From contig NZ_WEZF01000004.1 of assembly GCF_009177065.1 (NCBI RefSeq), forward strand, positions 1 through 64,000: a stretch of 64,000 bases of DNA. Reading direction: 5' to 3'. Positions 49,433 through 62,389 of this stretch are shown here, in pieces. Position numbers and translations under genes: made by a program. Numbering within the stretch: the stretch's first letter is position 1; every line of letters starts with the position of its first letter. The notes beneath the pieces are model-generated. The model was not told the DNA's origin. It did no database searches and saw only the letters and a program-made list of their open reading frames with translations. The stretch comes from Tautonia marina (GTDB lineage: Bacteria > Planctomycetota > Planctomycetia > Isosphaerales > Isosphaeraceae).

Positions 49433-49884
49433 CTGGAGACTCCTTCCTCAACCTCCAAGACCGATCGCGTCCATGCCACGGCCCCAGGCGGCGGCAAGCA
49501 AGGTACCGACCGGGACCATAACGCGCCGCGGACCCGCCGGATCGTTCGGACACCCGAGGAAAAATCCCGAGGAGATCGATCAATCCAGTTCCGCCAAGCC
49601 GGCGCAATGGCCCCGCGCGGTCCTTTGATTCTGCAATGGTTTTTCGGTCCCGGCTGGGCGGCTGCTGAATGGGCCAATCGAGGGGAAGCCGAGTTCGGCT
49701 GTCGTAATCGGCTCATCCTGAACAACCGGAGCGACCGATACCCAGAACCGAGATACGACCAAGGAGTCGGGGGGTCGGTCCGTCGGGACCACTCTCGGAT
49801 TTCAAGTCGAGGGGGCTTCCGGGTCTGGCGAAGGGCTGGACCGTGAGGCTCGCCGGGCCTTACAGAGCGCGGAGGATCAGGATC
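49433..49884. other. Divergent interval between FG-GAP and tolC genes
   Basis: 452 bp without a convincing gene; no clear promoter pair found. Confidence 0.35.
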
Positions 49885-52782
49885 GTGAACACGTCCAAGA
49901 CGCGGAGGACGACCGGAGGCTGGAGCGCTCGGCTCGCGATGGTCATCGCGGCGTTGGCGGCCTCGACGGGTTGCACTCGGGAATTCTTCCGCAACTGGGC
50001 GGATCAGGATGTGACCGAGGCGGTGTTCGAGAAAAGCCGCGATCCGAGATTTCGGATCGATTTGTTCACGAAAACCCCACCGGCCATGTCACGGTTCGCC
50101 GACCCTTATGATCCGGATCGTCCCCCTGCTCCGCCCGATGACTTTGCGGCGCAAGAGCTTTCGCCACAGCCCCAGAAGCCCACGCACCGACTGATTAGCC
50201 CCGCCGAGGGAACCGGTTACCTGGACTTACTGGAGCAGTGGCGCCGCGAGGAAGGCCCAAGACGCCTCGTCGATATGACCATCGACACGGGGCCGACGGT
50301 CCGAGAGGAGGCCCCTCCGCCGCCCGAATCTCCCTCTCCGTTCCCACTTGATCCGAATGCGGGGCCGAGCGACCCCAGAATGTCGCCTATTCCAGGAGGA
50401 GAGTCGGAGGACGCCGCTCCTCCTGACCCGCGACGCCCATCCATCGAATCCACTCCGCTGCCCGACGACCTTTCTATCGAATCAACGCCGTTACCGGACG
50501 ACCTTTCCCTTCAGCCCAGGCGGGATGACGCTGTGCAGGCCGTAGCCTTGCAGATTCCTGATCCGCTTCAACCCGGCGGGGACATCGACCCTCGGGATCC
50601 GTTCGGCCAGGGGCTGACTCCGGAAGAAGCGTCGGGAATCGTTGACGTCCCCCCCGATACCGGCCGCGACCTGATCGACATTCTCAAGCCCGAGGCGATC
50701 GTCTTTGACGAGGCCGCTGCCTACGGCTACGGCAAGGACGTTGAACCCTACATTGTCGACGGCCGCAAAATTTTGACCCTGGCCCTTCAGAACAGTCGCG
50801 CCTATCAATTTCAGCTGGAGAATCTTTACCTTCAGGGCCTGGCCGTGACGCTCCAGCGGTTCCAGTTCATGCCTCAGTTCGCGGCGGGGATGTCTCCCGG
50901 AGGCCCGAGCTTCGGCGGATTCGCCGGCCCGAACCCTGGCAACTCGTATCTCTACCGCACGCAAGAAACCGGCACGCCGGCGTCGTTGATGAACATCGGT
51001 ACGCTGGCCGGAGTCGGCAAGCTCTTGTCGTTCGGCACGTCGGTGACGGGGAACTTTGCCAATCAGACGGTGATCAATTTCGGGGGTCCGAATGCGGTCT
51101 CGACGACCTCGCAATCGTTCCTTCCCCTGAACCTGGTGATCCGATTCCTGCGAGGCGGTGGTCGGGCCTTCGTGCTGGAGCCCTTGACGCAGGCCGAGCG
51201 AAACCTGCTCTACGCGATTCGAGACTTCGGGCGCTTCCGCCAGGAGTTCTTCGTCAGCGTGCTGGCCGGCGGTGGTCTCTCGGGTGGCGGCGGCGGCGAC
51301 CCCCTGACGGGTTACCTCTCGGTTCTCGGTGTGCTGCAGGCGGTCGAGAACAATACGAAGAACGTCGCGGCCTACGAACGGGTGCTCGAGGTCTTCCAGG
51401 AGCTGTCCCGAGGTGCCGCCTCGACGGTCGCCCCGCTTGACCTTGTGAACGTCGAGATCGACTTGCAGAGCCAGCGGCTGAGCCTCTTGCAGTCGAGCGT
51501 GACCTACCGGAACCAACTCGACAACTTCAAGCAACAGCTTGGTTTGCCGCCGGACCTGCCGCTCTTGCCTGACAGCAACTTGCTGGAAGGCTTCCGAGAG
51601 GTCTTCGACGAGATCGACAGTCTGGAAACCAAGCCCAGGCCCGTGCTCGAAGAACTGGTGCAGAAGCTGCCACCGCTGGAAGACGTGGTCATTGACGGCC
51701 GTCCGGTCATCGCCCTGTACCGACAGGCCGCCGAGGTCGCCCGCCAGCGACGCCCGATTCAGCAGCGGGTTGCGGATCGTCAGCTCGCCCGATCGACGGC
51801 CGAGCAGAAGCGAACGCTCCTACTCGACGCCATGCGGCAGGGACTGCTCGGTCCGGAGCAAGAGGAGGAATTGCGACGCGATCTTGAAGCGACCGAACGG
51901 GAAATTGCCTTGCTGAATCCGGCGCTTGACGTCGAAGACCGCGAGGAGATCAATCGCCTCATCGCTCAGGAGCGGGAAATCTTCGTGCTGGCCAACGAGC
52001 GGCTGGAAGATTTGCTGCGATCGGCACAACGCGTTGCCCTGGAAAACCGACTCGACTTGATGAATGCCCGGGCACAGCTTTATGATGCATGGCGACAACT
52101 GGCCGTGACGGCCAATCAGTTGCTCGGTGTCTTCAACACGACACTGTCCAACCAGTTCCTCACCCCGCCAACCACGAACAACCCGTTTGGCTTCGATCAG
52201 CAGAGCAAGCAGTTCTCGCTGACCCTGCAAGCCGAACTGCCCTTGATTCGCGTTGCCGAACGGAATCAGTTCGTCACTGCTCAAATTGCCTACCAACGAG
52301 CCCGCCGAGGTCTGATGCAGATTGAGGACTCCTTGAAGAACTCACTCCGCCAGACCATCCGCAATCTGCAGCTCCAGTATCAGCAATACGAAATTAGCAA
52401 GACGCAATATGTTGTCGCTCTTGTTACGCTGGACCAGTCGTTCCAGCGGTTCCTGGAGCCGCCTCGTAGCGGGGGTGGTTCTTCTGCCGGTAGCCAGCTC
52501 GTGCTGACCTTGCTTCGAGGACTGAACAGCGTGAACTCGGCCCAGAACGGCTTGATCCAACGCTGGGTCCAGTTCCAGACGACTCGCCTGAATCTTTATC
52601 GCGATCTCGGCATCATGCCCTACGAGGAGTGGGAGGCATTCTATGAACTTTTCCCTTCAGCAAGCCCCTCAGCCGCCGGCCTCGGGGTCGGAACACGATC
52701 TGCCCCCGCTCCAGAACTCGAACCAGCCGCCGTCTTCGGCCAGCCGGGTGCCGGCGCCGAAGAAGCGGGGGTCGGGTTCTAA
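49885..52782 (+). CDS. TolC-family outer-membrane efflux protein (lipoprotein)
   Basis: 965 residues from a GTG at 49885 with AGGA 6 nt and GGAGG 12 nt upstream; a GTG at 49843 in frame would extend 14 residues. Signal LAMVIAALAASTGC is a lipobox with Cys at about 30. About 250 residues of Pro-rich linker come first, containing a duplicated ESTPLPDDLSI unit. The OEP domain starts near 280 (LTLALQNSRAYQFQLENLYL) with long alpha-helical hairpins (RQRRPIQQRVADRQLARSTA; LENRLDLMNARAQLYDAWRQ). It forms the outer-membrane channel of a tripartite exporter with the next three genes. The last about 45 codons overlap the adaptor gene. Confidence 0.9.
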   Translation: MNTSKTRRTTGGWSARLAMVIAALAASTGCTREFFRNWADQDVTEAVFEKSRDPRFRIDLFTKTPPAMSRFADPYDPDRPPAPPDDFAAQELSPQPQKPTHRLISPAEGTGYLDLLEQWRREEGPRRLVDMTIDTGPTVREEAPPPPESPSPFPLDPNAGPSDPRMSPIPGGESEDAAPPDPRRPSIESTPLPDDLSIESTPLPDDLSLQPRRDDAVQAVALQIPDPLQPGGDIDPRDPFGQGLTPEEASGIVDVPPDTGRDLIDILKPEAIVFDEAAAYGYGKDVEPYIVDGRKILTLALQNSRAYQFQLENLYLQGLAVTLQRFQFMPQFAAGMSPGGPSFGGFAGPNPGNSYLYRTQETGTPASLMNIGTLAGVGKLLSFGTSVTGNFANQTVINFGGPNAVSTTSQSFLPLNLVIRFLRGGGRAFVLEPLTQAERNLLYAIRDFGRFRQEFFVSVLAGGGLSGGGGGDPLTGYLSVLGVLQAVENNTKNVAAYERVLEVFQELSRGAASTVAPLDLVNVEIDLQSQRLSLLQSSVTYRNQLDNFKQQLGLPPDLPLLPDSNLLEGFREVFDEIDSLETKPRPVLEELVQKLPPLEDVVIDGRPVIALYRQAAEVARQRRPIQQRVADRQLARSTAEQKRTLLLDAMRQGLLGPEQEEELRRDLEATEREIALLNPALDVEDREEINRLIAQEREIFVLANERLEDLLRSAQRVALENRLDLMNARAQLYDAWRQLAVTANQLLGVFNTTLSNQFLTPPTTNNPFGFDQQSKQFSLTLQAELPLIRVAERNQFVTAQIAYQRARRGLMQIEDSLKNSLRQTIRNLQLQYQQYEISKTQYVVALVTLDQSFQRFLEPPRSGGGSSAGSQLVLTLLRGLNSVNSAQNGLIQRWVQFQTTRLNLYRDLGIMPYEEWEAFYELFPSASPSAAGLGVGTRSAPAPELEPAAVFGQPGAGAEEAGVGF
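50440..50505 (+). repeat. 33-bp tandem repeat in TolC linker
   Basis: Two adjacent 33-bp units encode identical SIESTPLPDDL peptides (50440-50472, 50473-50505) but differ at several third positions, so the protein sequence is held by selection or the duplication is old. Confidence 0.85.
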
Positions 52783-54598
52783 GCTCGGCCGTCGCCTGGC
52801 GGTGCTGACCATGGCCGCGGCGGTGGTCGGCACCGGAGGGTACTTCGCTCTCACGTCCACGGACGAGGTCGGCGGCTCGACACTGTCGACCTTGCCCGGC
52901 CTCTCGAAGTGGCTTGCCCCGGCGGCGCCGTCGGTCCTGACCTACGAGGCGAAAAAAGGCCCGCTGATCGTGACCGTCCGGGAACGGGGCAACCTGGAAA
53001 GTACCAACAACCTGGAAGCCAAGAGCGAGGTGGAAGGGCAGACGACGATCATCATGATCCTGCCCGAAGGCACTCGGGTCGTGAAGGATCAGCTCGTCTG
53101 CGAGCTCGACTCGGCCGCCCTGAAAGACAATCTGGCGAACCAGCAGATTGCGACCGAGCGAGCCGACGCCGACTATCAGAACGCGATCAAGACGCGCGAA
53201 GTCGCTGAGATTAATGTTCGCGAGTACATCGAGGGCGTCTTCCCGCAGGAAGAAAAGACGATCATGGGCGAGATCAAGCTCGCCCAGTCCGAGTTGGAAC
53301 GCTCGAAAGACCGGCTCAACTGGTCGGAAGACATGCTGAAGCTCGGCTACATCAGCCAGGCCCAGAACCTCAGCGACAAGTACGACCTGCAGCGGGCCGA
53401 GTTCAATCTGGACCAGGCCGAGAAGCGTCTCGAAGTGCTCAAGCAGTACACCTACGAGAAACAGATCAAGTCGCTCGAAGGGGACGTGGAGAAGGCTCGG
53501 GCCGATGAGCTGGCCAAGCAATCGACGTTCGAACTGGAGAAGGAAAAGGAAGAGCGCCTTCGCCGGATGATCGAGAAGTGCAAGATTTACGCTCCCGGCA
53601 ACGGCATCGTCGTCTACCACCAGGAAGAAGGGCGATGGGGCAGCCAGGATGGCCCCTCGATCATGGAAGGGGCCACCGTCCGCGAGCGGCAGACCATCTT
53701 CAAGCTGCCCGACATCGACAACATGCAGGTCAACACCAAGGTCCATGAGTCGATGATCGACAAGGTCAAGCCGGGCATGAGCTCCCGGATTCGAGTCGAC
53801 GCGTTCCCGAACAACGAGCTGGTGGGCTCGGTCATGGAGGTCAAGCCGCTGCCCGACCCGACCAGCTTCTTCAGCTCCGACGTGAAGGTGTACACCACCC
53901 TCGTCAAGATTGAAAACGCCAACGAGGGACTTCGCCCCGGGATGACCGCCGAGGTGACGATTCTGATCGCCCGGCTCGAAGACGTTCTAAGCGTCCCCGT
54001 CCAGGCGATCATCGAATACGGCGGCGAACATCACGTCTGGGTCTACCAGGGGGACGGCAAGTGGGACAACCGGGTGGTGAAGGTCGGCATGACCAACACC
54101 AAGTATGTCGAGGTCACCGAAGGGCTTGAGGAAGGCGAACGCGTCGCGCTCAATCCTCGGGCGATCATGACCGAAGCCGAGAACCGTGAGGCCTTCGGCG
54201 CCGGTGGCGAACGCAAGGGCTCCGAAGAACTCGGCAACTGGAGCGATGATGAGGCCGCCAAGGCCAAGGCCGCAGGCGAGCAGCCTTCGGCCCGCGAAGC
54301 GGCCAAGGCCGAGGGTGGCCCCGGCGGCGAGGGGGCTCGGCCGAACCCGGCCATGTTCCAGAAGTTCCAGAACATCAGCCCCGAAGATCGCCAGAAACTC
54401 CGCGATGCCTCCGACGAGGAACGCAAGGCCATCATGAAGAAGGCCGGCTTCACCGATGCCGAGATCCAGCAAATGGATCAGATGCGGCAGAGCATGGGAG
54501 CCGGTGGAGGTGGTGGCTTCGGCGCGGGCGGCCCCGGGGGTGGACGTCCTGGTGGGGGTGGCCCCGGGGGTCCTGGTGGTGGAGGTCCTCGACCGTGA
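52643..54598 (+). CDS. HlyD/MacA-type periplasmic adaptor of efflux pump
   Basis: 651 residues; the ATG at 52643 has GGGAGG about 9 nt upstream and lies 140 bp inside tolC in another frame. The next in-frame ATG (52811) would cut off the Arg residues in front of the membrane helix (RRLAVLTMAAAVVGTGGYFA). The lipoyl half-motif, VRERGNLESTNNLEAKSEVE then LPEGTRVVKDQLVCELDS, is followed by long coiled-coil hairpins (about 160-290), the second lipoyl half KIYAPGNGIVVYHQE, and a beta-barrel (FKLPDIDNMQVNTKVHESM). The tail is Gly-rich with a short charged helical piece (SPEDRQKLRDASDEERKAI). Links the inner-membrane pump and TolC. Same operon as the ABC genes: GTGA overlap downstream. Confidence 0.92.
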   Translation: MNFSLQQAPQPPASGSEHDLPPLQNSNQPPSSASRVPAPKKRGSGSKLGRRLAVLTMAAAVVGTGGYFALTSTDEVGGSTLSTLPGLSKWLAPAAPSVLTYEAKKGPLIVTVRERGNLESTNNLEAKSEVEGQTTIIMILPEGTRVVKDQLVCELDSAALKDNLANQQIATERADADYQNAIKTREVAEINVREYIEGVFPQEEKTIMGEIKLAQSELERSKDRLNWSEDMLKLGYISQAQNLSDKYDLQRAEFNLDQAEKRLEVLKQYTYEKQIKSLEGDVEKARADELAKQSTFELEKEKEERLRRMIEKCKIYAPGNGIVVYHQEEGRWGSQDGPSIMEGATVRERQTIFKLPDIDNMQVNTKVHESMIDKVKPGMSSRIRVDAFPNNELVGSVMEVKPLPDPTSFFSSDVKVYTTLVKIENANEGLRPGMTAEVTILIARLEDVLSVPVQAIIEYGGEHHVWVYQGDGKWDNRVVKVGMTNTKYVEVTEGLEEGERVALNPRAIMTEAENREAFGAGGERKGSEELGNWSDDEAAKAKAAGEQPSAREAAKAEGGPGGEGARPNPAMFQKFQNISPEDRQKLRDASDEERKAIMKKAGFTDAEIQQMDQMRQSMGAGGGGGFGAGGPGGGRPGGGGPGGPGGGGPRP

Positions 54599-55440
54599 CC
54601 CAGATGCAAAACTTCCCGCTCATGGGGGATCAGCTGGACTCTTCCGGAGTCCAGCCGATCGTCCGGCTCAGGGACATTCGCAAGCAGTATGTCATGGGGA
54701 AGGCCTCCAGTCGTCAGGAGGCCATCGTCGTGCACGCCCTCCGCGGCGTCTCGGTCGACTTCTACCCGGGCGAGTACGTGGCCATCATGGGGGCGTCGGG
54801 CTCGGGCAAGAGTACGATGCTCAACCTGCTCGGTTGCCTCGACCGTCCGACCAGCGGCCAGTACCTGCTCGGCAACCAGGATGTCGCCAACCTCAGTGAC
54901 GACGATCTCTCGGAAGTCCGGAGCCGGTTTATCGGCTTCATCTTCCAGGCGTATAATTTGATTCAGCAGTACACGGTTCACGAGAATATTCAGTTGCCAC
55001 TGACGTACCAGGGTTCGGGGAAGCTCACTGAGGAAGATGAGGAGCGAACCCTGGAACTGGCCGAGATGGTGGGGCTGGGGACTCGAATGGACCACCGGCC
55101 GAATCAACTCTCCGGCGGTCAGCAGCAGCGCGTGGCGATTGCCCGTTCGCTGATCAACGATCCGTATATCATCCTGGCAGACGAGGCAACCGGGAACCTC
55201 GACAGCGCGACCAGCGACGAGATCATGGCGATGCTCGAACGGCTCAATCAGGCCGGCAAGACCATCATCATGGTCACTCACGAAGACGACATCGCCGAGC
55301 ATGCCCGGCGCGTCATCCGGATGAGGGATGGTCAGATCATTTCCGACGCCCCGAGCGATCGGATGAAAGACGCGCCACCAGAGGTCGTCGGCCTCGGACT
55401 CGGCACCGGTTTGCCGGGTTCGCAACTCGCCCCTGTCTGA
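54595..55440 (+). CDS. MacB-type ABC transporter ATPase
   Basis: 281 residues. GTG start overlaps the adaptor stop as GTGA, i.e. translational coupling. Walker A GASGSGKSTMLNLLG, signature LSGGQQQRVAIARSL, Walker B YIILADEATGNLDS, switch His in VTHEDD. Typical MacB/LolD subfamily ATPase, here separate from its permease (in E. coli MacB the two are fused). It drives the tripartite exporter with the FtsX-like permease next door. Confidence 0.95.
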   Translation: MTQMQNFPLMGDQLDSSGVQPIVRLRDIRKQYVMGKASSRQEAIVVHALRGVSVDFYPGEYVAIMGASGSGKSTMLNLLGCLDRPTSGQYLLGNQDVANLSDDDLSEVRSRFIGFIFQAYNLIQQYTVHENIQLPLTYQGSGKLTEEDEERTLELAEMVGLGTRMDHRPNQLSGGQQQRVAIARSLINDPYIILADEATGNLDSATSDEIMAMLERLNQAGKTIIMVTHEDDIAEHARRVIRMRDGQIISDAPSDRMKDAPPEVVGLGLGTGLPGSQLAPV

Positions 55441-55470
55441 TCGATCCCCCCGAGCTGAGAGAACCGACCG

Positions 55471-56754
55471 ATGGGACGCGTTTGGCGAAGCGTGAATCTG
55501 GGGGTCAAAAGCCTCCTCCTGCACAAACTCCGATCGTCGTTGACGATTCTGGGCGTCGTCTTCGGCGTGGCCGCCGTCATCATGATGCTGGCCGTCGGTG
55601 AAGGGGCCGCGCGTGACGCCCAGGAGCAAATCGCACAGCTTGGTGCGACGAATATCATCTATCGATCGGTCAAGCCGAGCCAGGACGCCCAGAGCCAGAA
55701 GTCGGGGGGGCGTCCGTCTCGCGTCTTGAATTACGGCCTGAAATATGAAGATTTCGACCGGATCCTTGCCACGGTGCCCACGATCACCAAGGCCTTGCCG
55801 ATCCGGGAAATCAAGCGCGAGGTGCGTCGGTCGAATCAATCGATGGAGGCACGGGTGGTCGGCACGACACACGACTACCAGGAGTTCAATCGCCTCCAAA
55901 TCGAGCGAGGCCGCTTCCTGCTGCCTTCGGATAATGAGCACTACGAGAATTACTGCGTGCTCGCCGCCGAGACGGCTCGGACCTTGTTTCCGTTTGAGAA
56001 CCCGCTGCGTCAGTCGATCAAGATCGGGAGCGATTATTACACGGTCGTGGGGGTCACCAAGCCCCGAGGTTCGACGGCGGCGATCGGCGGGAGCATGGCG
56101 GCCCAGGAGTACGACAAGGACGTCTACATTCCGCTGAACACCTGCCGGGCCCGGTTCGGTGAGCGCATTCTCTCCAGCCGAGCCGGTTCTCAGGAAGCCG
56201 AGGAGACGCAGCTCTCTCAGATCACCCTCCAGGTCAAGGAGATCGACGAGGTCCCGATGACCGCTCCGGTGATCGAGGCCGCGGTTCAGCCGTTCCACGA
56301 GGAGAAGAAGGACGTCGATATGGTCGTCCCTTACGAACTCCTGGAACAGGCCAAGCGTCAGGCGGCGATCTTCAGTCTCGTCTTGGGGTCGATCGCGGCC
56401 ATCTCCTTGATCGTCGGTGGCATTGGCATCATGAACATCATGCTGGCGACGGTGACCGAACGGACCCGAGAGATCGGCATCCGCCGCGCTCTGGGGGCCA
56501 AGCGTCGGGATATTACCCAGCAGTTTTTGATCGAGACGGTGGTACTTTCGGGCATTGGTGGGCTGATTGGGGTCGCCATCGGCGTCTTCGTGCCTCCCTT
56601 GATCACGCAGTTCTCGGAGATCAAGGCGGTGGTCACGCCCAGCTCGGTCATGCTCTCGTTCGGGGTCTCGGTGCTCGTCGGCATCGTTGCCGGGCTGTAC
56701 CCGGCCAACCGAGCGGCCAAGATGGATCCGATCGAGGCCCTTCGGCATGAGTAA
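55471..56754 (+). CDS. MacB-type (FtsX-like) ABC permease
   Basis: 427 residues, 30 bp after the ATPase gene. Four membrane helices: one at the N-terminus (LTILGVVFGVAAVIMMLAVG), three at the C-terminus (LGSIAAISLIVGGIGIMNIM, IGGLIGVAIGVFVPPLI, VMLSFGVSVLVGIVAGLYPA), with the periplasmic MacB-PCD domain between (about 50-290). The conserved NIMLATVTERTREIGIRRAL coupling region is intact. Completes the MacB-like transporter; cargo cannot be told. Three successive terminator hairpins follow. Confidence 0.95.
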   Translation: MGRVWRSVNLGVKSLLLHKLRSSLTILGVVFGVAAVIMMLAVGEGAARDAQEQIAQLGATNIIYRSVKPSQDAQSQKSGGRPSRVLNYGLKYEDFDRILATVPTITKALPIREIKREVRRSNQSMEARVVGTTHDYQEFNRLQIERGRFLLPSDNEHYENYCVLAAETARTLFPFENPLRQSIKIGSDYYTVVGVTKPRGSTAAIGGSMAAQEYDKDVYIPLNTCRARFGERILSSRAGSQEAEETQLSQITLQVKEIDEVPMTAPVIEAAVQPFHEEKKDVDMVVPYELLEQAKRQAAIFSLVLGSIAAISLIVGGIGIMNIMLATVTERTREIGIRRALGAKRRDITQQFLIETVVLSGIGGLIGVAIGVFVPPLITQFSEIKAVVTPSSVMLSFGVSVLVGIVAGLYPANRAAKMDPIEALRHE

Positions 56755-60421: not shown

Positions 60422-62389
60422 ATGTCGACGGTCGTTCGGCAGTCGTCCGAGGTACCCGCGCCGAGGAAGCGTTCAGACCTACGGCGTTCCAGAGCGATTC
60501 GCCTCGCCTTGGTGGCTTTGCTGCTCTGCTCGCTGGCGGGCTCGGGAGTCCTCGCCTGGTTTGCGATGGACCAGAAGCTCCCGTGGTTCGCGTCCGATGC
60601 CGAAGAGATTCAGTTCGAGAGCGTGATCGTTGATCGCGGCCCGATCCGATCTTACCTCATCGAAAGTGGAGAGCTGGAAAGCGCCAACAACACCACCATC
60701 TACTGCGAGGTCGAAGCCGTGCTCGGCACGGTTGGCGGACCGTCCGGAGGCTCCGGCTCATTCGGAGGGGGCCGTGGCGGAGGGGGAGGCGGCGGTGGTG
60801 GTGGCTCGTCCTCGGCCGGTGGATCGACCAGCCTGGGAGGTGGCGCCGGAGGTCTGGGAGGAGGCGCCGGCGGTGCTCTGGGAGGGACGGGCAGCGGGAC
60901 AGGAGCGGGAGGAGCAGTCGGGGGAGCCAGCGGCGCCGGCGGCGCGGCGGGAGGAGGCGGAAGGTCTGGCGGGGGAGGCCTCGGAGGCGGGGGCGGCGGT
61001 GGCTCCGCGGTCTCGGCGCTGGCCGACCGACCCAACATCCGGAGCTTTTCGTACCGGGTTACTCCTCACATGCCCTTGCGAATGGATTCGGGCTCGTTCG
61101 GTCAATCGTCGAACCGCTCCTCGACCATGTCTTCCAACTCGTCGGATCGGGGCAATAATGATTTCGAGGAACGAGCCGGTTCCACTCGCATTATCTGGCT
61201 GATTGATGAAGGGACCCGCGTTGAACCCGGTGAACTCGTCTGCGAGCTGGATAGCGCTCCGTTTGTGGACGAGCTGGCAACCCAGCGCATTCGGCACGCT
61301 CAGGCCCTCTCCTGGGTCAAGCAAGCCGAAACGATTTTCCAGGTGGCCGAGATCGAATTGCGCGAGTATCGAGACGGAATCTATCTGCAGGATATCCGAC
61401 TCGTGGATCAGTACCTGGAGAATTGCCGGACCAAGGAACAGGAGGCCCGCTCGACTTACGAGTGGTCGCAAGACCTCTTTCGGCAGGGGCTCCGTTCCGA
61501 ATCGCAGCTTCTGGGCGATCGTCTGGTGTTCGAACAGTGGCAAATCGAGTACGAAAACGCCCTGGAAATGCGGCGTCGCCTGACCGAGTACACTGGTAAG
61601 CGCATTCTCAAGAGCCTGGAGGCGAAGGTGGAAGCCGTTCGCTCCGACCTGCTGAGTCAGCGGGCCGCATTCCAGGTGGAGGACGAGCGACTCAAACGAC
61701 TGGAACAGGCCATCGCCAATTGTCGGCTCTATGCCCCTTCCGAAGGGGTGGTCGTTTACGCTCGCAGCACCAACACCTGGGGACGCGTCGAGGATCAGAT
61801 CGCCGAAGGGGTCACCGTTCGAGAGAACCAGGCGGTGATTCAGCTTCCCGATCCCGAAAACATGCAAGTCCAGGTCAAGATCAACGAGTCGAAGTATCGG
61901 TACATTCAGGAAGGGATGACCGCGACCATTCGGATCGACGCTTTCCCTGATCGGCCCCTTCTGGGAACGATTCGAGAGATCAAGCCCATTCCGGCGCCGG
62001 CGAACTTTGTTTCTGACGTCAAGCTTTATTCGGCCACCGTCCGCATCGGCAGTGGTTTTGAAGGGATTCGCCCCGGACTCAGCGCCGAGGTGGCCTTCCA
62101 TCTCGGTGATCGGACGGAGGTGACCCGAATCCCGGTCGGAGCGATTCGCTGGTTCGACGAGCAACCCTATGCGGCGGTGACGGGGCGTCGCGGCAACGTT
62201 TCCTGGAAGCGGCTTGATCTCGGTTTGCGGAACCCAAGTTATGCCGAGGTGCTCAGCGGCCTCTCAGAAGGGGATCGCATTGTGGCTGATCCGTTGCTCC
62301 TGCCTGCCCCGGTTCTCGACACCCAGCAGCCGAACGATCAACTGGCTCGGGTCGAGAATCGGGGCCTGTCTGCATCATCGGGCCGATGA
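60422..62389 (+). CDS. HlyD/MacA-type adaptor with glycine-rich insertion
   Basis: 655 residues; GGGAGAG precedes the ATG at 60422. One membrane helix (RLALVALLLCSLAGSGVLAW). The first lipoyl half, IESGELESANNTTIYCEVE (to about 98), is broken by about 150 residues: about 95 of them (105-198) are nearly all Gly, Ala and Ser, then about 55 Ser/Asn-rich residues. The half-motif resumes IIWLIDEGTRVEPGELVCEL (about 255). Coiled coils (ATQRIRHAQALSWVKQAETI to about 440), LYAPSEGVVVYARS, a barrel (LPDPENMQVQVKINESKYRY) and a C-terminal domain follow. The adaptor at 52643 is clearly related but has no such insertion. No ABC or TolC gene is adjacent, so its partners are elsewhere. Its 3' end overlaps the next gene by 15 bp, convergently. 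Confidence 0.9.
   Translation: MSTVVRQSSEVPAPRKRSDLRRSRAIRLALVALLLCSLAGSGVLAWFAMDQKLPWFASDAEEIQFESVIVDRGPIRSYLIESGELESANNTTIYCEVEAVLGTVGGPSGGSGSFGGGRGGGGGGGGGGSSSAGGSTSLGGGAGGLGGGAGGALGGTGSGTGAGGAVGGASGAGGAAGGGGRSGGGGLGGGGGGGSAVSALADRPNIRSFSYRVTPHMPLRMDSGSFGQSSNRSSTMSSNSSDRGNNDFEERAGSTRIIWLIDEGTRVEPGELVCELDSAPFVDELATQRIRHAQALSWVKQAETIFQVAEIELREYRDGIYLQDIRLVDQYLENCRTKEQEARSTYEWSQDLFRQGLRSESQLLGDRLVFEQWQIEYENALEMRRRLTEYTGKRILKSLEAKVEAVRSDLLSQRAAFQVEDERLKRLEQAIANCRLYAPSEGVVVYARSTNTWGRVEDQIAEGVTVRENQAVIQLPDPENMQVQVKINESKYRYIQEGMTATIRIDAFPDRPLLGTIREIKPIPAPANFVSDVKLYSATVRIGSGFEGIRPGLSAEVAFHLGDRTEVTRIPVGAIRWFDEQPYAAVTGRRGNVSWKRLDLGLRNPSYAEVLSGLSEGDRIVADPLLLPAPVLDTQQPNDQLARVENRGLSASSGR
60733..61014 (+). 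repeat. Gly/Ala/Ser-rich low-complexity coding stretch
   Basis: About 94 codons of Gly with Ala, Ser and some Thr inside the adaptor gene, made of short imperfect GGAGG-type repeats without a fixed unit. The antisense frame is Pro-rich and is not a gene. Confidence 0.9.

Follow-up and report, generated by a model that had tools for sequence, protein, structure and literature searches.

The window, a stretch of 64,000 nucleotides from Tautonia marina (NCBI RefSeq assembly GCF_009177065.1, contig NZ_WEZF01000004.1, positions 1 to 64,000 of the forward strand), encodes two paralogous periplasmic adaptors: adaptor 1, which belongs to a MacB-type operon, and a second adaptor with a long insert in its lipoyl domain. 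The features discussed here are as follows:

52643..54598, plus strand: adaptor 1, the paralogous adaptor of the MacB-type operon, without insert (used for comparison)
60422..62389, plus strand: second adaptor gene, 655 amino acids, MacA/HlyD-type periplasmic adaptor by Pfam and structural matches
60479..60535, plus strand: predicted N-terminal membrane helix, residues 20-38 (AlphaFold2, pLDDT only about 65; hydrophobic by sequence)
60662..60715, plus strand: strand 1 of the first lipoyl half (...ESANNTTIYCEVE), residues 81-98; all 36 aligned orthologues have C95, V97 and E98
60716..60727, plus strand: entry to the insert, conserved as AVLG here and as an EALIG-type motif in orthologues; across the 36 aligned, G102 is invariant and A99 nearly so
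60728..61027, plus strand: linker 1, Gly/Ala/Ser-rich and low-complexity, residues 103-202; pLDDT below 50 at 103-198, mean top-residue frequency 0.37
61028..61081, plus strand: RPNIRSFSYRVTPHMPLR, residues 203-220: conserved peptide and likely functional element, carried by all 43 collected orthologues and predicted twice at a pLDDT of about 90
61082..61177, plus strand: linker 2, Ser/Asn/Gly-rich, residues 221-252; pLDDT below 50 at 224-247, mean top-residue frequency 0.42
61178..61249, plus strand: rest of the first lipoyl half (GSTRIIWLIDEGTRVEPGELVCEL), residues 253-276; strands 255-260 and 272-276 (AlphaFold2); G253, T255 and I257 invariant
61256..61720, plus strand: alpha-helical hairpin, helices 279-354 and 360-433 (AlphaFold2), with clade-specific Y331, C335, M383 and R386

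The frame of the second adaptor is free of stops from 60233 and runs through the insert region as a single open frame, in line with an earlier note on this DNA that saw no frameshift here. The start was set at 60422 on the basis of an MST- start in all four members of the genus, and residues are counted from this ATG; since the closest genome (G003) shares the reading upstream of 60422 as well, this start is not settled. Both HlyD_D23 and HlyD_3 exceed the Pfam gathering scores, with PF16576 at 37.3 bits (cut-off 30) and PF13437 at 32.4 bits (cut-off 22.2). An NCBIfam scan matched seven adaptor families, in all seven cases below the curated cut-off. For RND_mfp the protein scored 76 against a cut-off of 94.9, whereas the paralogue at 52643 passed with 116.2, and for the MacA equivalog NF008606 the two scored 40.8 and 69.3 bits, neither reaching the cut-off of 342.

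AlphaFold2 prediction of the full protein from 36 sequences gave a mean pLDDT of 76.1, with values of at least 90 at 359 of 655 residues and mostly above 90 in the core. The predicted order of elements is a lipoyl domain split around an alpha-helical hairpin, then a beta-barrel and a membrane-proximal domain, the domain borders being our own assignment. With the PDB as fold library, the top structural matches were adaptors. MacA (9qgy_G) ranked first (VIA-align Z 14.5, rmsd 8.0, 330 aligned residues), in a tie within one Z unit with EmrA, BesA and Spr0693, and it also led by Foldseek (E 1.1e-19) and by sequence profile (E 3.3e-19). MacA of MacAB-TolC (PDB 9qgy, 5nik, 3fpp, 4dk0) has the domain order and fold of the second adaptor, but in the sequence alignment it has no insert at the lipoyl turn. 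The second adaptor further differs in its hairpin helices of about 75 residues each (AlphaFold2) and in that its gene does not share an operon with a MacB, no ABC gene adjoining it in the window. The loop corresponding to the Gln209 gating loop of Escherichia coli MacA is also longer in the second adaptor (NTWGRVEDQIAEGVTV), the residue alignment here being of low confidence. EmrA, the adaptor of an MFS pump, shares the lipoyl domain and a very long alpha-hairpin (4tko; Z 13.9, rmsd 8.0, 312 aligned residues).

The insert separates two beta-strands of the first lipoyl half. With CEVE ending at residue 98 (nucleotide 60715) and IIWLIDEG starting at residue 257, the gap is 158 residues, close to the roughly 150 residues of the earlier note. 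The insert comprises linker 1, the 18-residue peptide RPNIRSFSYRVTPHMPLR and linker 2. The paralogue at 52643 shares 36% identity over the core and the same neighbourhood, but has a tight turn at this position, with neither insert nor peptide. Its lipoyl halves are adjacent, as had been noted, and SEVEG runs straight to QTTIIMI (SEVEGQTTIIMILPEG). The description of about 95 residues as nearly pure Gly, Ala and Ser holds for residues 103-198 (81 of 96), but it misses that the insert also embeds a conserved peptide: the last third is partly not low-complexity and contains these 18 residues. Among stop-free stretches of 95 residues in the six frames of the window, the insert is the richest in Gly/Ala/Ser (82 of 95); elsewhere the minus strand reaches at most 50 of 95 and the plus strand 46 of 95, and a minus-strand stretch with 53 of 95 lies within the same DNA as the insert. 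Repeats in the insert DNA are imperfect and short, with scores of 36-70, and every one of the four Gly codons occurs, which led us to reject a simple tandem-repeat expansion. Since the insert lies between two beta-strands and most of both linkers have a pLDDT below 50, the linkers are predicted to be disordered and the segment to loop out, as the earlier note had expected. According to the available part of a review, EmrA also has a long disordered loop, but in the beta-barrel and not in the lipoyl domain, and that part mentions no docked peptide (PMC13328181).

The core following the insert was searched in 99 genomes near the window, with matches in 83 of 99 at E<=1e-30. The family of the window, which probably is the Isosphaeraceae, contributed 45 genomes (G000-G044), from 42 of which 43 orthologous proteins were collected; second copies of the same locus (L013, L015-L017) were left out, and G018, G041 and G043 gave no usable frame. 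All 43 orthologues carry the peptide. Their layout is C.VEA..G, a linker, the consensus KP.IRSFSY.V.PH.PLR, a second linker and then mostly PGSTRII. A regular expression for the peptide matched 42 of the 43, missing L059, where it reads RPNIRSFSFRATPHMPLN. The alignment comprised 36 of the 43, without six cut by contig edges and without L050, a near-duplicate of L049; within it P204, S208 and F209 are invariant and R207 is nearly so. The stretch from VE to the peptide spans 62-197 residues (median 101, n=37) and that from the peptide to the core 21-67 residues (median 45, n=43).

Low-complexity DNA often breaks assemblies, and six of the 43 orthologous frames begin at a contig edge inside linker 1, which would fit a misassembly, a frameshift or a dying gene. 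However, both lipoyl halves and the same architecture are present in the other 37, the peptide is found in 43 of 43 proteins from 42 separate genomes, the core is conserved and the listed frames contain no stops. The earlier concern that the insert might occur only in this assembly is contradicted by its presence in all 43 collected orthologues, and with these orthologues we reject a misassembly or frameshift; the chance that this explanation is correct is negligible.

A profile of the peptide built from 32 rows had a single strong match in its own genome, at E 1.8e-13, with the second best at 0.15. Tested on 198 genomes drawn from the class, the profile matched 43 of the 45 known family genomes at E<=2.1e-7; the remaining two (G041 and G043) are drafts. 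Among the other 153 genomes no match reached E<=1e-3, and nine had matches at 0.0046-0.098 that look like chance; 126 genomes without a match enter by number only, irrespective of family. Of 199 genomes drawn from the phylum, the window's own was alone in passing E<=1e-3, and at E<=0.01 one further, chance-like match appeared (E 0.0097, a 25-residue frame with an internal stop). Solved structures gave nothing at E<=1. With one strong match in the genome and none convincing in the solved structures and the phylum draw, a module that is reused elsewhere was rejected.

The core tree contained 83 sequences, namely the 43 orthologues, 21 other adaptors of the family and 19 from other families; L119, L145 and L146 (incomplete) and L147 (no core match) were dropped. 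The 43 orthologues form one group with a branch support of 0.999 in the unrooted tree, the value relied on here, as node labels shift upon re-rooting, where 0.366 was printed for the same group. Since the orthologues form one group and the other adaptors show no more than a tight turn or short loop at the insert site, the insert most likely has a single origin in this adaptor lineage, predating the diversification of the family. Two divergent adaptors (L143 and L144, at G024:C139 and G005:C115) have a short KIVSSNSMIKGENRGASA-type loop at the same lipoyl turn and no peptide; this turn tolerates small insertions.

The peptide and its linkers evolve differently. Compared with G003, 18 of 18 peptide residues are identical while 5 of 18 codons are silently changed, and identity is 73% in linker 1, 68% in linker 2 and 91% in the core. 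Within the genus the peptide identity exceeds the core identity in five of six pairs, the exception being the pair G001-G002 (0.72 versus 0.78), and in 68% of 630 pairs similarity in the peptide equals or exceeds that in the core. The mean top-residue frequency over 36 orthologues is 0.70 in the peptide versus 0.37 in linker 1 and 0.42 in linker 2. The two lipoyl parts that follow the insert reach 0.78 and 0.72, so the peptide does not exceed these parts of the core; the hairpin and the beta-barrel both stand at 0.63 and the membrane-proximal part at 0.56. By residue frequency and pairwise identity, the peptide keeps pace with the folded parts of the adaptor and the linkers do not. It is the embedded peptide, not linker composition, on which selection acts. 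Some minimum linker length may be kept: of the 37 stretches measured before the peptide the shortest has 62 residues, and of the 43 measured after it the shortest has 21.

It could still be argued that the composition itself is the function, as in a flexible or adhesive surface loop, since the linkers are predicted to be disordered and linker 1 has a Gly/Ala/Ser/Thr content of 67-95% in 40 of 42 rows. The conserved element, however, is a peptide with charged and aromatic residues, and a second adaptor copy in G004 (L056; G004:C210:1-2800) has largely lost the composition (52% and 27% Gly/Ala/Ser/Thr in its linkers) but retains the peptide. We therefore give this explanation only a very slight chance. 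Of the earlier suggestion of a surface-exposed flexible or adhesive part, flexibility agrees with the predicted disorder, and nothing pointing to adhesion was found.

Comparison with relatives and structure prediction, which the earlier note had recommended, thus yielded variable, disordered linkers, but also an embedded peptide that is conserved and predicted with a pLDDT of about 90. In the AlphaFold2 prediction of the full protein the ten-residue blocks across 201-220 have a pLDDT of 90 and 92 and the linker blocks 30-49, and the peptide forms one helical turn at 207-210. When residues 62-480 were predicted, without the beta-barrel and membrane-proximal domains, the peptide blocks remained at 91 and 89 and the helical turn at 207-210 was unchanged, with lower confidence for strand 1. 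Since the high pLDDT persists without these two domains, docking on either of them seems unlikely, and the peptide is predicted to dock on the lipoyl or alpha-hairpin part of the adaptor, a prediction read from pLDDT and not from contacts. High pLDDT may be inflated for conserved columns.

A candidate seat was sought among clade-specific core positions, defined as those with one residue in at least 90% of the 43 orthologues and that residue in at most 5% of 38 other adaptors, with L143 and L144 left out of the comparison set. Seven positions are strictly clade-specific: Y331, C335, M383, R386, I523, R569 and W595. The first four share one hairpin level, on both helices at 19-26 residues from the tip, where the paralogue group mostly has E, A, K and V. 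The other three fall outside the hairpin, in domains whose removal leaves the peptide confidently predicted, so the mid-hairpin positions are the candidates for the seat. This remains a lead, as the peptide-free paralogue group served as a control and has ten specific positions of its own, of which 306, 410 and 413 also share one hairpin level. The distance from the anchor to such a seat is about 52 helix residues, or roughly 78 Å by our arithmetic, so the shortest linker 2 (21 residues, in L056) would be nearly stretched. Among 4589 tests for covariation between peptide and core none survived correction (lowest p 1.2e-4). The only orthologue with Q instead of R or K at residue 207 (L055) is also the only one without R386, having Q there; this coincidence is one event on a deep branch and no proof. 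As a separate observation, I523, R569 and W595 (window 61988-62206) lie in the beta-barrel and membrane-proximal domains and may mark a specific transporter partner.

We propose that the gene product is an extra MacA-like adaptor in which the peptide works as a lineage-specific tethered brace that clips onto its own or the neighbouring subunit. This is the best explanation we have, and we judge its probability to fall just short of even. In the common ancestor of the family, the turn between the two strands of the first lipoyl half would have given way to a tethered peptide. This strand-strand turn, from which the insert emerges, should face the base of the hairpin, as reasoned from the family fold (strand up, turn, strand down, then hairpin). 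The two tethers would let the peptide reach the hairpin or a lipoyl site of the same or the next subunit, and by docking there, whether in cis or in trans within the ring, it would act as a clasp or brace. Once docked, the peptide could stiffen the hairpin relative to the lipoyl ring or hold neighbouring hairpins during pump assembly. The linkers probably lie outside the channel, since six copies of about 155 extra residues would obstruct a channel about 31 Å wide, the width given for Spr0693 in the available part of PMC5768738. The same text describes the gating ring of MacA-like adaptors as formed by a lipoyl loop (PMC5768738), but we do not read the insert as an enlarged gating loop, since by position the gating loop comes after the hairpin.

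Another role for the peptide would be that of a mere structural patch or cap over a hydrophobic surface of the hairpin or lipoyl domain, with functionless linkers grown neutrally by slippage in GC-rich DNA. The fast divergence of the linkers in length and sequence fits this, as does the retention of the peptide in L056 between flanks of just 62 and 21 residues, the shortest of all. Yet these same values are the minima among the 37 and 43 stretches measured, so that a minimum length may be kept, and the paralogues align over the same core without a cap; we consider the patch fairly improbable.

The genomic neighbourhood was compared in 19 loci, namely 16 that were fetched from long contigs and, where known, reached the other adaptor, together with L057-L059. 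MacB-type ABC and permease genes lie in the same stretch as the second adaptor in 14 of the 19, and a homologue of the window's superoxide dismutase gene in 18 of the 19. In G033 the other adaptor is about 21 kb away. No transporter gene lies beside the second adaptor within the window; the nearest MacB-type genes are at 54595-56754, with four genes between. Superoxide dismutase, GreA and pseudouridine synthase are identifications made by eye from the protein sequences. The second adaptor could act as an additional adaptor of the MacB-type pump, or its transporter could be encoded elsewhere. Likewise, TriA and TriB of TriABC-OpmH are, according to the available parts of PMC13328181 and PMC8277102, two unlike adaptors tied to one neighbourhood. 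In triABC both genes lie in one operon, whereas here they are linked in 14 of 19 loci with other genes between.

Recruitment peptides are usually long disordered tethers that bear a short conserved motif. The layout of the insert fits this, and the peptide could be a bait on a flexible tether that captures an outer-membrane channel, a MacB-type permease, the other adaptor or another envelope protein and so recruits or checks a partner. The nearby MacB-type pair would agree with such a role, though no transporter adjoins the gene in the window. Against a bait, AlphaFold2 predicts the peptide with high confidence in the absence of any partner, even on residues 62-480. The motif also occurs just once in the genome, which counts for less because it need not be present in a partner. 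We regard the bait as unlikely, if plausible enough to be taken seriously. There is a slim chance that the peptide is instead a switchable clasp, which sits on its own hairpin when the adaptor is free and swaps to the next subunit or to the insert-free adaptor 1 at ring formation, thereby setting the composition or locking of a mixed two-adaptor ABC pump unique to Isosphaeraceae.

For the tethered brace, an analogy is found in AcrA, where a small molecule proposed to wedge between the lipoyl and barrel domains restricts motions, according to the available part of PMC10354078. Since this inhibitor restricts the motions of an adaptor, a built-in brace is a sensible counterpart: a peptide that braces or latches the ring would act from within as the inhibitor does from outside. 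The lipoyl domain is described in the available part of a review as carrying conformational signals in adaptors (PMC13328181), and it is in this domain that an entire bacterial family retains a short, loosely tethered peptide. No paper on the insert was found among the titles or abstract beginnings of the matches listed. The family-specific tethered peptide is a variation on a well-known adaptor, and its mechanism is testable, if unproven. If the brace is real, the peptide could be cut, cross-linked or swapped to probe how adaptor stiffness controls export. The case also cautions that a low-complexity region can hide a conserved docking peptide.

Some further features of this system deserve mention. 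A predicted matrixin-type metalloprotease (Peptidase_M10 in three of three proteins scanned) is encoded near the second adaptor in three genera (L092 8585-10204, L093 8529-10313 and L102 3808-5598), possibly as a substrate or as a chance neighbour. Adaptor 1 ends in a Gly/Pro-rich tail (GGGGGFGAGGPGGGRPGGGG..., window 54497-54595), another low-complexity segment in the same system. Lastly, the outer-membrane factor (window 49843-52782) has a long Pro-rich N-terminal region before its sole Pfam match at residues 728-870, and its end shares 140 bases with the adaptor 1 frame, counted from the first ATG of that frame.
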